Part shown: positions 50,242-55,327 of the stretch, one piece after another
Numbering within the stretch: the first letter of the stretch is position 1
Layout of the letters: every line of letters begins with the position of its first letter
DNA from: Bacteroidota bacterium
Lineage (GTDB): Bacteria; Bacteroidota; Bacteroidia; Bacteroidales; VadinHA17
Length of the DNA stretch: 64,000 nucleotides
Reading direction: 5' to 3'
Assembly: GCA_011050615.1 (NCBI GenBank)
Contig: DRFJ01000055.1
Location: 1 to 64,000 of the forward strand
Position numbers and translations under genes: made by a program
The notes under the pieces: generated by a model
The model's input: the letters and a program-made list of their open reading frames with translations, nothing else
Database searches by the model: none
Told to the model about the DNA's origin: nothing

Positions 50242-51747
50242 ATGAAAGCCATTTATGGATTTCTGATAATGATATTTATGACCATGAATATTTCAGGCCA
50301 GCAGAGAGGGTTTGACAGGGACCCGGTAGTGGCAGGATCATTTTATCCGGCCGGTGAAACAGAATTGAAAAGGCAGCTTGAGCGGCATTTCAGGGATGCT
50401 GCCGCAATGAAGTCTTTTACAGTTAAACAGGGAGAAAGAGTAAGGGCTTTAATTTCTCCGCATGCAGGATACGTATTTTCTGGCACGGTGGCAGCATCCG
50501 CCATAGGATGTATTCCTTCAGAGGCAATATATGACAATATCTTCCTGATTGGTTCAAGTCACAGGCTTTCTTTTCCCGGAGCATCAGTCTATTCAGCGGG
50601 AAATTACAGGACACCACTGGGTACTGTTATTGTTAATACCGATATAGCTGAAAATCTTACAGAAAACTCAGAGATATTCACTTACCTGAAATCCGCCCAT
50701 CTGAATGAGCACAGTCTGGAAGTGCAACTACCTTTTCTGCAGTATCACCTGGGAAGGAATATAAGAATTGTTCCGATTATTATCGGAACACAAAACAGTA
50801 AAATCTGCAAGGACATTGCCGCGGTTCTCAAACCCTGGTTCAATGGGAATAATCTCTTTGTCATCAGCAGTGACTTCAGCCATTACCCTTCATTTGAAGA
50901 TGCAGAAAAAGTGGACGGGCTGACTCTGGAAGGTTTAATGTCAGGAGACCCTGAAACCTTTCTCGGTACCCTCAGGGAAAATTCAGCACTGAAGATCAAT
51001 GGACTTGCAACCAGTATGTGTGGCTGGACATCAGGTCTTGTTCTCCTTCATCTTGCGAAGTCAGAGCCGGGACTGGAATTTAAACACATCCTTTACCAGA
51101 ATTCGGGACACAGCAAGCTGGGTGACCGGTCAGGGGTTGTGGGCTATCATTCCCTTGCCCTCATTGAAAAGGAAGATGCAAGCGCTAATGGCCAGGATTT
51201 CAGTATAGGTCTTGAAGATCAGAACCGCCTGCTTGATATAGCCAGGCAATCAATAAGATCATTCCTGCTTAAAGAAAAACAGCCTGAGATAGATGAATCT
51301 AAGCTATCTCCGTCACTGCTAAAGCATCTGGGAGCCTTTGTCACACTTAATATGGACGGGCAGCTGAGGGGTTGTATAGGCAGGTTCATGCCTTCAGAAC
51401 CGCTTTATGAGACCGTGCATGCGATGGCTCTCGAAGCCGCTTTTAATGATGCACGTTTTAAACCACTCGGCCGGGACGAACTGGAAAAAGTTACAATTGA
51501 AATATCAGTGTTAAGCCCGCTCAGGAGAATTGATAGTACAGACAAAATTGTTCTTGGGAAACATGGTGTTTATATAAATAAAGATAGCCGGTCAGGAACG
51601 TTTCTCCCCCAGGTTGCAAATAACCGGGACTGGACAGTTAGTGATTTTCTTGGTCATTTATCGCGTGATAAAGCAGGCCTGGGATGGACAGGCTGGAAGG
51701 ATGCGGAAATTTATGTATACGAAGCCTTTGTTTTCGGGGAGGAATAA
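50242..51747 (+). CDS. amrB: AmmeMemoRadiSam protein B-A fusion (MEMO1 + AMMECR1 domains), exported
   Basis: The 501-residue protein begins with a signal-peptide-like leader (MKAIYGFLIMIFMTMNISGQ) that would put it outside the cytoplasm. The MEMO1-like domain (about 28-310) keeps the family histidines and cysteine: His74 in ISPHAGYVFSG, His107 in IGSSHRLSF, His157 in HSLEVQLPFLQ, His214 in SSDFSHY and Cys260 in TSMCGW. These resemble the metal or active site of MEMO1. The AMMECR1 domain (about 325-501) has LRGCIGRF at 375-382 and LEAAFNDARFKPL. The trio of MEMO, AMMECR1 and a radical SAM protein is widely conserved but its reaction is not established. It is 5 bp upstream of the membrane protein gene. 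Confidence 0.9.
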   Translation: MKAIYGFLIMIFMTMNISGQQRGFDRDPVVAGSFYPAGETELKRQLERHFRDAAAMKSFTVKQGERVRALISPHAGYVFSGTVAASAIGCIPSEAIYDNIFLIGSSHRLSFPGASVYSAGNYRTPLGTVIVNTDIAENLTENSEIFTYLKSAHLNEHSLEVQLPFLQYHLGRNIRIVPIIIGTQNSKICKDIAAVLKPWFNGNNLFVISSDFSHYPSFEDAEKVDGLTLEGLMSGDPETFLGTLRENSALKINGLATSMCGWTSGLVLLHLAKSEPGLEFKHILYQNSGHSKLGDRSGVVGYHSLALIEKEDASANGQDFSIGLEDQNRLLDIARQSIRSFLLKEKQPEIDESKLSPSLLKHLGAFVTLNMDGQLRGCIGRFMPSEPLYETVHAMALEAAFNDARFKPLGRDELEKVTIEISVLSPLRRIDSTDKIVLGKHGVYINKDSRSGTFLPQVANNRDWTVSDFLGHLSRDKAGLGWTGWKDAEIYVYEAFVFGEE

Positions 51748-51752
51748 ATTTT

Positions 51753-54197
51753 ATGTACCATGTAATACTAATAGGCATTGTTTTTTTAATTCTGTATTTC
51801 CTGACCCTGACCGCCAGTAAATTCAGAATAATCACTGTAAGGGGGCACAGGGCTTTCTGGAATACAATTCTTCTTATTACCTTTCTCACAGCAGCTTCAG
51901 CAGGCATTTTCCTGGCCCTTCAGTCAAACTATAAATGGGAAATACAGTCAGTTGAAAAGATACTTAGCTGGCATGTGGAAGCTGGAATTGCCATGTCATT
52001 TACAGCATTTTTACATCTGACATGGAACCTGGGTTATTACATAAGAATAATTACCGGAGGCGGTGAAAAGAACAGCGTGCCTGTAAATTATGGAGTTAGT
52101 AAGGAGTTATTCTTCAATTACAGGATTATGCTTCTTATACTGGGTTTTATATCCGGTGCAGTCCAGGTCATTTTCCTCAGGGAGATCTTAAACCTGTCAG
52201 GTGGTTATGAAATAGCTACCGGTGCTGTTTTTGCGTTCTGGATAATTATTTCAGCATTTGGAGCCAGGATGGCCGGGAAAAGCAAAAATACAAATCTGGT
52301 AAGCTTGACGGCTGTCCTTCCCCTTGGAAGTATTATTAGCCTGGTTATTTTTATTGTTTTATCCAAAGTCATGATCGAAGAAGGGCTTACACCGGGAATT
52401 ATTTATACTCTTATAATAACCGGCCTTTCATTAATCCCCTTCTGCTTCCTTTCCGGTTTCCTTTTTGTAAGACTTTCCTTCTGCGCCAGTCGTGAGACAC
52501 AATTACTACCGGGCGACTCATTTGCACTGGAAACAACCGGCAGTATGATTGCGGGTATAATTGTAACTATTGTTACCGGAAATATTCTCGGCAATTTCCA
52601 GATACTGGCTGCAGCAATTATTTTATATTATATCGTTTATCTGATTGCAGGCAGATTCAGGTATTATAGAATACTGACAGGCATTGCGGCATTGTGCCTG
52701 GTGGCCGTGATAATATTTAAACCCGATACCTTCGTCAGGAATATCCTGCTGGGCAGTGTCAAGGTTACCCGGAGTATTGATTCCAAATACGGCAATGTGG
52801 CAATCAGTGAATACGAGGGTTCAGGGAGTGTTTTCTATAATCACAGGCTTATAGATTATGAGCAGGATGAAAAGCAGACAGAAGAAAATATTCATTATGC
52901 AATGCTACAGAGTGAGGCCCCTGAAGAAATACTTATTATCTCGGGAGGAGCCGATAAACATATAGGTGAAGTGCTTAAATACCCCTCGGTCAAATCAATA
53001 AGCTATCTGGAGCGTGACCCCGTTTTGATTGCATGCACCAGGGACACAAGCATTAATTACACCAGTGCCGAAGTGGTATTTGAAAATGATGATGCATTCA
53101 GTTATATACGGGGTAGCAGTAAAAAATATGACGTAATAATATCCCTGCTGGCTGAGCCGGAAAATATAGTTACAAACCGATTTTATACAAGAGAATATTT
53201 CCAGGCTATAAAAAGGATAATGTCAAAGGGCGGGATATTCATGCTTAAGGCAGGCGGATCAGGCACTTATTTAAGTGATGAAGAAACCGGGTCCCTTTCA
53301 GCAATATATAATAGCCTGGTCGGGGTATTTTCAAATATTCTTCCCATAAAGGGAGAATCTCTTTACCTGATTTCTTCAGACAGCATGCTGAACGCAAACA
53401 TACCTGATCTGGTAGCAGACCGGGGTATAGAAACCACTTATGTAAACAGCTATTATCTGAGCAGGCAGATTATAAAATTTAATTCCGACCAGGTAGTAAG
53501 TATAATAGACAGTCTTATGCCGGGAAACATGCTGGACAAACCCAGGGCTGTCTTTTACAGGCAGAAGCATCAACTAAAAAAAGCCGGCAGGTACAGGATA
53601 CCTTTTATAGCCGCTATCTGTGTTTTATTGCTTATTCCCTTCCTGACGGGAAACAACAGTTCCAGGACTATGTACAGTGCTGCTTTAAACCTTGCAGGTA
53701 CGGAGTTACTGGCTCTTATCCTTATCCAGTCAACTGCAGGTAATTTCTACCAGCTTGCCGGTTTATTAATAGCTGTTGTTATGGCAGGGCTTGCCATTGG
53801 CAGTGCTTCAGAAATAAAAATAAGTCCGTGGTTAATAGAAATGATTCCCGTAATGCTTGGATTCCTGGCTATAATATTTGCCCTGGTATCGCCATTAATA
53901 CTTGAAATACAGAGTGGTACAATACCAGTAATACTTTCATTACTAATTGTAATTATACCTGCCGTACTGGCCGGGTCCTATTACCGGAGGAAGACCGGAG
54001 AAGAGCTTAGTTCAAAGATTATTTCGGGCATTTACTTTGCTGATATGTGTGGAGCGGCCCTGGGTTTCATGATTATAGCAGGCATACTGGTACCCCTGTT
54101 TGGTATAAAATCGACTTTCTTTATTCTTGCTTTTTTTAATTTTGCCTCATATATTACAAACAGGGTAATAAGTGGTATTGGGAATCTTGTTCAATAA
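51753..54197 (+). CDS. Multi-pass membrane protein with spermidine-synthase-like domain
   Basis: The protein has 814 residues from the ATG at 51753, which follows GGGGAGG by a few bases and the previous stop by 5. About ten membrane helices (1-325), a soluble Rossmann-like domain (about 335-560) and about seven more helices follow. The first 100 residues hold a helix with His74 and His88 in LSWHVEAGIAMSFTAFLHLTW, like b-heme-type DUF4405 domains. The next part has REILNLSGGYEIATGAVFAFW, typical of membrane-fused spermidine-synthase-like proteins. The soluble domain keeps ILIISGGADKHIGEVLKYPSV and YLERDPV, but the SAM-site GGGDGG is degraded and the catalytic DxxDP region reads SLLAEPEN. It is not a functional polyamine synthase by these residues. 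Its place between memo and radical SAM genes suggests it belongs to their system. Confidence 0.75.
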   Translation: MYHVILIGIVFLILYFLTLTASKFRIITVRGHRAFWNTILLITFLTAASAGIFLALQSNYKWEIQSVEKILSWHVEAGIAMSFTAFLHLTWNLGYYIRIITGGGEKNSVPVNYGVSKELFFNYRIMLLILGFISGAVQVIFLREILNLSGGYEIATGAVFAFWIIISAFGARMAGKSKNTNLVSLTAVLPLGSIISLVIFIVLSKVMIEEGLTPGIIYTLIITGLSLIPFCFLSGFLFVRLSFCASRETQLLPGDSFALETTGSMIAGIIVTIVTGNILGNFQILAAAIILYYIVYLIAGRFRYYRILTGIAALCLVAVIIFKPDTFVRNILLGSVKVTRSIDSKYGNVAISEYEGSGSVFYNHRLIDYEQDEKQTEENIHYAMLQSEAPEEILIISGGADKHIGEVLKYPSVKSISYLERDPVLIACTRDTSINYTSAEVVFENDDAFSYIRGSSKKYDVIISLLAEPENIVTNRFYTREYFQAIKRIMSKGGIFMLKAGGSGTYLSDEETGSLSAIYNSLVGVFSNILPIKGESLYLISSDSMLNANIPDLVADRGIETTYVNSYYLSRQIIKFNSDQVVSIIDSLMPGNMLDKPRAVFYRQKHQLKKAGRYRIPFIAAICVLLLIPFLTGNNSSRTMYSAALNLAGTELLALILIQSTAGNFYQLAGLLIAVVMAGLAIGSASEIKISPWLIEMIPVMLGFLAIIFALVSPLILEIQSGTIPVILSLLIVIIPAVLAGSYYRRKTGEELSSKIISGIYFADMCGAALGFMIIAGILVPLFGIKSTFFILAFFNFASYITNRVISGIGNLVQ

Positions 54198-54214: not shown

Positions 54215-55327
54215 ATGAAGAAGCGTGAGTTTGTAAAAAACTGTCTTATGGGTGCCGGGGTTATTACTGCCTGCCCTGCACTATTGCATGGCAGCCCGTC
54301 CCGGCATGTAAAGGAGAGGAATTACAGGCTTGCCCTCTTCCAGGAAGAATCGGCTAAGGGCATTATGTGCAGGATATGTCCTAATGAATGTGTCTTAAAA
54401 GAGGGTGAGTTAAGTGAATGCCGGAACCGTATTGTGAGAAACGGCAAATTATATACCATGGCTTATGGTAATCCATGTGCCATCAATCTCGACCCGGTAG
54501 AGAAAAAGCCATTATATCATTTCATGCCTTCCACCATTACTTTCTCCATTGCTACGGCAGGATGTAACCTGGCTTGCCTGAACTGTCAGAACTGGACCAT
54601 ATCCCAGACAAGTCCAGATAAAACACGCAATTCAGATCTAATGCCAGGGAGCGTTATAAGCAATGCTCATAATTATCAGTGTAAATCAATATCCTATACT
54701 TACTCTGAACCAATCACTTTCTACGAATATGTATTTGATTCAGCAACACTGGCCAGGCAATCAGGACTGAGGAATATCCTTGTTTCAAACGGTTATATAA
54801 ACACCGAACCTCTCCTTAAGCTCAGCAGTGTGATAGATGCTGCAAATATTGATCTTAAATCGTTCAATGATAAAACCTACATTAAACTTACCGGCGGAAA
54901 GCTTGAGCCTGTACTTGAAACCCTGAAAATATTAAAAGAAGAGCAAGTCTGGCTTGAAATTACCAACCTGGTAGTTCCCGAATGGACAGATAAAATGGAT
55001 GAGATAAGGGAAATGTGTAAATGGCTGTACTCAAACGGTTTCAGTGACACCCCTCTTCATTTCAGCAGGTTTACTCCTATGTACAAGCTCGAACAGCTTC
55101 CCCCCACACCGGTAAGTATTCTCAACAGGGCATGGGAAATTGCCAGGGAAGAAGGCATTAACCATGTATATATAGGCAACGTACCCGGTACTCATGCATG
55201 TGACACCTTTTGTGATAAATGCGGAGAGAAAGTTGTTGAACGAAGAGGATATACCATTACGGCCAACAATATAGAAAATGGCAGATGCAAATTCTGCAAT
55301 TCCGTAATTAGCGGAGTGTGGGAGTAA
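54215..55327 (+). CDS. amrS: AmmeMemoRadiSam system radical SAM enzyme with Tat-like leader
   Basis: The protein has 370 residues. The radical SAM CxxxCxxC is Cys117, Cys121 and Cys124 (CNLACLNC), followed by the SAM-binding region and IDLKSFNDKTYIKLTGG. Extra cysteines occur before it (CRICPNEC at 52-59, and Cys69) and near the C-terminus (CDTFCDKCGE, CKFCNS), which could hold another Fe-S cluster or zinc. The N-terminus MKKREFVKNCLMGAGVITA looks like a Tat or secretory leader, with KR in place of RR. A leader on a radical SAM enzyme is unusual because it needs SAM and a reductant. It is 17 bp after the membrane protein gene. Confidence 0.88.
   Translation: MKKREFVKNCLMGAGVITACPALLHGSPSRHVKERNYRLALFQEESAKGIMCRICPNECVLKEGELSECRNRIVRNGKLYTMAYGNPCAINLDPVEKKPLYHFMPSTITFSIATAGCNLACLNCQNWTISQTSPDKTRNSDLMPGSVISNAHNYQCKSISYTYSEPITFYEYVFDSATLARQSGLRNILVSNGYINTEPLLKLSSVIDAANIDLKSFNDKTYIKLTGGKLEPVLETLKILKEEQVWLEITNLVVPEWTDKMDEIREMCKWLYSNGFSDTPLHFSRFTPMYKLEQLPPTPVSILNRAWEIAREEGINHVYIGNVPGTHACDTFCDKCGEKVVERRGYTITANNIENGRCKFCNSVISGVWE

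Follow-up and report, generated by a model that had tools for sequence, protein, structure and literature searches.

A three-gene AmmeMemoRadiSam operon

The window, a stretch of 64,000 nucleotides (positions 1 to 64,000 of contig DRFJ01000055.1), encodes a large membrane protein, here named SpdH (P0001), whose gene is the middle one of a conserved operon, with a MEMO-AMMECR1 fusion upstream and an AmmeMemoRadiSam radical S-adenosylmethionine (SAM) enzyme downstream (Table 1). The SpdH gene lies 5 bases downstream of the fusion gene and 17 bases upstream of the radical SAM gene. Its frame is open and yields a product of 814 amino acids; a longer frame (51684-54197, 837 amino acids) begins inside the MEMO-AMMECR1 gene. 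Because the starts of homologues match the residue encoded at 51753, the ATG at that position is the likely start rather than the upstream ATG at 51684. All three AmmeMemoRadiSam proteins (TIGR04335, TIGR04336 and TIGR04337) are present above curated cut-offs. The arrangement differs from ordinary AmmeMemoRadiSam in that proteins B and A are fused and predicted to be exported, the radical SAM enzyme carries a Tat-type signal, and there is a dedicated polytopic partner with a spermidine-synthase-like domain.

Table 1. Features of the SpdH operon in the window
Feature	Position	Strand	Description and basis
MEMO-AMMECR1 fusion (AmmeMemoRadiSam proteins B and A)	50242..51747	+	TIGR04336 225 bits, TIGR04335 172 bits, both above cut-off; N-terminal Sec-type signal peptide MKAIYGFLIMIFMTMNISGQQ
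SpdH	51753..54197	+	17-helix membrane protein: 3-helix His domain, MFS-type fold, spermidine-synthase-like domain predicted extracytoplasmic
N-terminal 3-helix domain, residues 1-122	51753..52118	+	probable b-type heme domain; conservation, weak family matches, model
His32	51846-51848	+	
His74	51972-51974	+	
His88	52014-52016	+	
MFS N-bundle, model helices 4-9, residues 123-300	52119..52652	+	AlphaFold model pLDDT 89; MFS structure matches
TM10, extra helix preceding the insert, residues 305-332	52665..52748	+	model; far end outside according to charge pattern
Spermidine-synthase-like domain, residues 337-596	52761..53540	+	predicted extracytoplasmic; Pfam, PDB, alignment, structure match, charge
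TM11, extra helix following the insert, residues 615-632	53595..53648	+	model
MFS C-bundle, model helices 12-17, residues 635-813	53655..54191	+	model, structure match
AmmeMemoRadiSam radical SAM enzyme	54215..55327	+	TIGR04337 350 bits; CxxxCxxC intact
Tat-type signal peptide of the radical SAM enzyme, MKKREFVKNCLMGAGVITACPALLHG	54215..54292	+	[KR]R-x-F motif in linked enzymes; TatC in host

Relatives were drawn from 60 related genomes, of which 37 gave a match, and from GTDB genomes (the best 80 of 445 relatives); a scan of contigs with the single protein found nothing, and the 445 relatives were found with an alignment as query. Nearly all are named as Bacteroidales or other Bacteroidota metagenome-assembled genomes, and the operon survey is one within Bacteroidota. 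In the 80 testable loci, namely those with room on both sides of the gene, all three operon genes occur in 75 and the strict order is kept in 70. The linkage persists in loci that are no longer neighboured by argS, siaC and ligA. Outside the taxonomic order, all six strong matches in the phylum-wide sample adjoin a TIGR04337 gene, and all six are without the N-terminal domain. The gene occurs with no radical SAM enzyme nearby at four loci (L123, L125, L045 and L049); one of the genomes concerned encodes the enzyme elsewhere and another has a complete operon at L044. No fourth neighbour gene, as a candidate for the substrate, recurs across distant loci. A plasmid search with SpdH was matched by the spermidine-synthase-like part alone, and weakly.

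Several loci depart from the common pattern. In genome G029 the membrane protein is encoded a second time (L045:3922-6066), in a copy lacking both the N-terminal domain and the operon partners. At two loci (L085:8536-10932 and L087:8473-10869) a 798-amino-acid frame on the opposite strand, which looks like an FtsX/MacB-type permease, splits the operon between the partner and radical SAM genes. Tandem radical SAM copies, one with a Tat-type signal and one without, follow the partner gene at L039:318-2489 and L132. In six related genomes (L042, L056, L129 and three more loci; for example L129:5612-6496) the operon is adjoined by the gene of a protein whose Tat signal, MKHSRRDWLKLS, has a true RR; we take this protein to resemble DUF362 proteins. 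The membrane-protein gene is broken into two frames at L113 and L118, through either sequencing error or decay.

The component families are known. The open-access literature (preprints excluded) yielded no paper in which a radical SAM enzyme is exported or AMMECR1 is paired with spermidine synthase, and an exported AmmeMemoRadiSam system with this membrane partner was not found there.

A transporter-like body carrying an altered spermidine-synthase-like domain

The AlphaFold model of SpdH, built with 61 sequences in the alignment, has a pLDDT of 89, a pTM of 0.89 and 17 membrane helices in the order three, then seven, then the spermidine-synthase-like domain (residues 337-596), then seven. In VIA-align comparisons residues 118-807 resemble MFS transporters (PepTSt, Z 25.7; SV2A, 24.4; NarK, 21.9), so that the spermidine-synthase-like domain is placed midway through an MFS fold, flanked by two extra helices. 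SpdH, with 14 core helices, shares its overall 12+2 helix fold with POT/MFS transporters: the match to PepTSt covers 352 residues at an rmsd of 3.8, a likeness of fold between a predicted model and a transporter of about 10% identity that lacks the 260-residue domain between the extra helices. The modelled body of SpdH therefore has the two-bundle MFS fold. The sequence-only reading had placed two histidines, His74 and His88, in the first helices, ahead of a fused spermidine-synthase-like domain; the histidines are there, and the helices that hold them form a separate three-helix domain ahead of a 14-helix MFS-type transporter.

PF01564 (Spermine_synth) is the sole Pfam domain found in SpdH (residues 380-500, 63 bits against a cut-off of 22.9). 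The PDB matches are aminopropyltransferases (E 7e-14), which are the nearest solved structures, and the superposition that had been proposed as a check gives a Z score of 27.1 (VIA) between the domain model and the Thermus thermophilus aminopropyltransferase 1uir. The model thus has the spermidine synthase fold. Both strings quoted from the sequence, the fold-level ILIISGGADKHIGEVLKYPSV and SLLAEPEN, are present.

The catalytic acids, which had been read as missing in this protein, are missing in the whole family, as counted in the alignment of 61 proteins. Ala400, at the position of the acid in GGG(D/E)G, is acidic in none of the 61 homologues, which have Leu, Ile, Pro, Val, Ala or Thr instead. 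Leu465, at the first Asp of D-x-x-D-P, is likewise acidic in none, and Glu468, at the second, is acidic in 11. The acids of the adenosine site are kept (Glu420 in 60/61, Asp447 in 61/61), and Glu377, Glu378, His381, Ser397, Gly398, Glu406, Lys409, Pro469 and Tyr506 are invariant. These invariant residues indicate that the domain is under selection for some role, and that this role is not aminopropyl transfer. A decayed pseudo-domain is ruled out by the invariant pocket residues Glu377, Glu378, His381, Glu406, Lys409, Asp447 and Tyr506.

The idea that SpdH is an ordinary membrane-fused spermidine synthase, as the Pfam name of PF01564 would have it, is hardly credible. None of the 61 homologues keeps the acid that recognizes decarboxylated SAM (dcSAM) or the first catalytic Asp, and SpdH scores 90 bits against the nearest equivalog, the NCBIfam polyamine aminopropyltransferase, whose cut-off is 472. 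SpeD (PF02675) was not found in the host genome (85% complete) and is absent from 58 of the 60 related genomes; it exceeds the cut-off in one (G051), whose match (L052) is a canonical GGGDG enzyme. With the residues lost and SpeD missing, a polyamine synthase was rejected, and since the putrescine/dcSAM site is not intact, the earlier conclusion to the same effect stands. The closest architectural analogues are the fused MFS/spermidine synthases of NF037959 and the PRK03612-type fused aminopropyltransferases, which also have MFS-like helices on a spermidine-synthase fold. In SpdH, by contrast, the domain lies between two complete MFS halves, the acids are lost, a His-bearing N-terminal domain is added and scores fall far below the cut-offs (16.4 bits against 40 for NF037959).

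A parallel for the altered pocket is NHMT, a fungal 7TM N-terminal histidine methyltransferase, in which a spermidine-synthase-like domain also sits on a membrane part, loss of the GxG(D/E)G acid accompanies the use of SAM in place of dcSAM, and SAM binding requires a Glu (PMC10349129). Residue comparison makes Glu420 the counterpart of this Glu in SpdH. The likeness is drawn from the spermidine-synthase-like domain: NHMT has seven transmembrane helices only, is fungal and is without a radical SAM partner. Judged by these residues, the SpdH pocket looks suited to SAM rather than dcSAM, whose supply would need the SpeD that was not found in the host, and the odds that the domain binds a SAM-type ligand appear slightly better than even.

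The same comparison raises an alternative in which SpdH would itself be an extracytoplasmic SAM-dependent methyltransferase of the NHMT kind, acting on MEMO-AMMECR1 or on another exported protein that the radical SAM enzyme also modifies. The two proteins share a membrane-anchored spermidine-synthase-like domain with the same change, the acid lost and the SAM-binding Glu kept (PMC10349129), and the pocket region of SpdH has acquired conserved new residues (Arg476, Lys409, Tyr506 and Glu377). This residue-level analogy is nevertheless an unlikely guide to function, since there is no known target, the MFS body exceeds what a mere anchor needs, and the tight linkage to a radical SAM gene calls equally for a supply of SAM.

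The charge pattern of the loops places the spermidine-synthase-like domain outside the cytoplasm. In the SpdH family the Lys and Arg count of the loops is 26.2 on one side of the membrane and 6.0 on the other, with the same direction in 61/61 homologues, and by the positive-inside rule this asymmetry puts the domain outside, where an insert flanked by two extra helices midway through an MFS fold would be expected. The rule was also applied, as a control, to 17 spermidine synthases that are membrane-fused and keep intact motifs (counted as having seven helices, since one of eight hydrophobic peaks was too near its neighbours to be a separate helix), and it puts their catalytic domain outside too. 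Either the entire fused family works outside, as the action of NHMT on exported proteins suggests (PMC10349129), or the charge rule misleads. Fused 7TM spermidine synthases of other Bacteroidota (L150-L171) combine intact GGGDG and DxPDP motifs with a domain placed outside, which makes their access to dcSAM puzzling.

The sequence-only reading had also offered SpdH as a sensor of SAM or dcSAM. The apparent fit for SAM rather than dcSAM, the predicted outside placement and the transporter fold together make the supply or docking of SAM likelier than sensing.

Export signals on the two operon partners

Their need for SAM and a strong reductant is why radical SAM enzymes are regarded as cytoplasmic. 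We know of no radical-SAM chemistry outside the cytoplasm and, to our knowledge, the presence of SAM in the periplasm is not established. The enzyme encoded next to SpdH nevertheless begins with a Tat-type pattern, (S/T)-(K/R)-R-x-F-x-(K/R) followed by a mildly hydrophobic stretch, a signal present in 85 of the 89 distinct linked enzymes. Sixteen of these 85 have RR and the remainder, like the enzyme of the window, KR. Of the four linked enzymes without the signal, three have frames that are disturbed or given a wrong start, and the fourth is the second member of a tandem pair. The G041 enzyme is encoded on a different contig from the partner gene and still retains the signal (L224).

None of 52 unlinked paralogues (34 and 18), many of them from the same genomes, has a Tat-type signal; two match the pattern by chance and are without the hydrophobic stretch. 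The genome of the window itself has a second TIGR04337 enzyme (L173; G000:C3:39031-40032), free of a signal unlike the operon copy, and no linked MEMO, AMMECR1 or spermidine-synthase-like genes were found in the 11 kb examined around it. The linked enzymes form nearly one clade (two changes on the tree against a shuffled mean of 30). The co-occurrence of TatC is useless as a discriminator, being near universal in these genomes; it was not found in G021 (97% complete), which has the operon.

The second partner is predicted to leave the cytoplasm as well: a hydrophobic signal is present in 88 of the 89 linked MEMO-AMMECR1 proteins, some of which also have a lipobox-like Cys. The CxxxCxxC of the radical SAM enzyme lies at 54563-54586, its C117, C121 and C124 are at least 95% conserved, and eight further Cys are conserved in the linked clade. 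The metal ligands of human MEMO1, H49, H81 and C244 (PMC11081632), correspond to H74, H107 and, since the alignment stops before it, probably C260 of the fusion protein; the linked proteins conserve these to at least 95%.

The export signals on both proteins point to radical-SAM chemistry outside the cytoplasm, and an extracytoplasmic location of this AmmeMemoRadiSam variant is judged likely from the sequences. It is improbable that the system is instead cytoplasmic, with KR-type N-termini that are membrane anchors or chance matches and with SpdH as a SAM sensor that regulates the radical SAM enzyme. Such a view has in its favour that most linked enzymes have KR and not RR, that SAM is a cytoplasmic compound, and that the positive-inside rule puts the domain of active fused spermidine synthases outside too. 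It has to contend with true RR motifs that fill whole clades of the same linked family, with the signals on 88/89 of the second partner, with the absence of the signal from all unlinked paralogues and with a charge bias shared by 61/61 SpdH homologues.

The N-terminal His domain and a possible role for SpdH

The histidines that had been singled out for a check of invariance are indeed conserved: among the 59 homologues with an N-terminal domain, 58 keep His74 and all 59 keep His88. His32 is His in 57, and a further His occurs at position 92 in 57 aligned homologues, with Asn in SpdH. The domain is conserved at least as well as the remainder of the protein (mean column identity 48%, 21 sequences). 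It has no Pfam match over a cut-off. Below the cut-offs, scans of the 59 members matched DUF4405 in 36, prokaryotic cytochrome b561 in 20, ferric reductase in 15 and eukaryotic b561 in 5, and a control stretch of equal length from these proteins gave no match to DUF4405, b561 or ferric reductase among the families listed. SpdH scores 10 bits with the DUF4405-type profile (cut-off 26.7), and the best member reaches an E value of 4.5e-4.

The likeness to DUF4405, prokaryotic cytochrome b561 and ferric reductase (PF14358, PF01292 and PF01794) thus consists of a helix with two conserved His 14 residues apart and of sub-threshold matches; the SpdH domain differs in having three helices only, with nothing over a cut-off. 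The three-helix model (pLDDT 87.8) returned no significant fold match with Foldseek and VIA, which gave generic helix bundles only, and a fold identity for the domain was not obtained in this way. From conservation and family resemblance, the N-terminal domain probably binds b-type heme. Two His 14 apart on one helix cannot share one heme, so a second helix or a dimer would have to provide partners.

The domain comes and goes within the family. Fifteen relatives are listed without it, two of them at contig ends, and a rough tree implies about nine gains or losses; it was never found alone in the 60 relatives. The core function cannot reside in a domain that several relatives do not have, and having been repeatedly lost or gained and never standing alone in the 60 relatives, it was rejected as the seat of that function. 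The potential usually required by a radical SAM cluster is probably out of reach for a b-heme. The first role offered by the sequence-only reading, electron transfer to the radical SAM enzyme, is favoured here as a putative one: the conserved His74 and His88 and the matches to heme-b families speak for it, and the scores below cut-off, the missing fold match and the absence of the domain from several relatives speak against it.

With export signals on two partners and a putative adenosyl-binding domain placed outside, on a transporter-like body, it is simplest to suppose that SpdH supplies SAM or removes 5'-deoxyadenosine, with an optional heme conduit. The Sec system would export the MEMO-AMMECR1 fusion and the Tat system the radical SAM enzyme, already folded with its Fe-S clusters, and SpdH would be the membrane partner of both. 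Its spermidine-synthase-like domain, on the outer face, would make no polyamine and would still hold the adenosyl group of SAM. Most likely SpdH would carry SAM across the membrane out of the cytoplasm and dock it on the outer face for the radical SAM enzyme; alternatively it would remove spent 5'-deoxyadenosine. Members with the His-rich N-terminal domain, that of the window included, may pass electrons outward to the enzyme's cluster through a b-type heme. We put the probability of this combined account at roughly 40%; it envisages an AmmeMemoRadiSam variant working outside the cytoplasm, with a membrane partner that supplies SAM and, in members with the His domain, electrons as well. It is doubtful that one fused protein, made of a cytochrome-b-like domain, an MFS transporter and a dead spermidine synthase as SAM dock, gives an extracytoplasmic radical SAM enzyme both SAM and electrons.

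A transporter could also serve the chemistry at its other end. SpdH might export or import the substrate or product of the exported MEMO, AMMECR1 and radical SAM proteins, with the spermidine-synthase-like domain as a nucleoside-binding lid or a scavenger of 5'-deoxyadenosine. The MFS fold with its high structural scores and the retained adenosine-site residues would suit such a role, as would the inhibition of radical SAM enzymes by 5'-deoxyadenosine (PMC8102628). The substrate of AmmeMemoRadiSam is not known, which tells against this possibility, and it is given little likelihood next to the supply of SAM.

If the system does work outside the cytoplasm, the rule that radical SAM enzymes are cytoplasmic would be broken by one that is widespread, conserved, of Tat type and provided with a membrane partner, and the question would arise of how SAM and electrons leave the cytoplasm. 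The AmmeMemoRadiSam proteins, known in people as MEMO1 and AMMECR1 and widespread though unexplained, would gain a bacterial variant whose location and partners narrow the possible chemistry. Membrane proteins that are annotated as spermidine synthases and have lost their active sites would gain a testable role.
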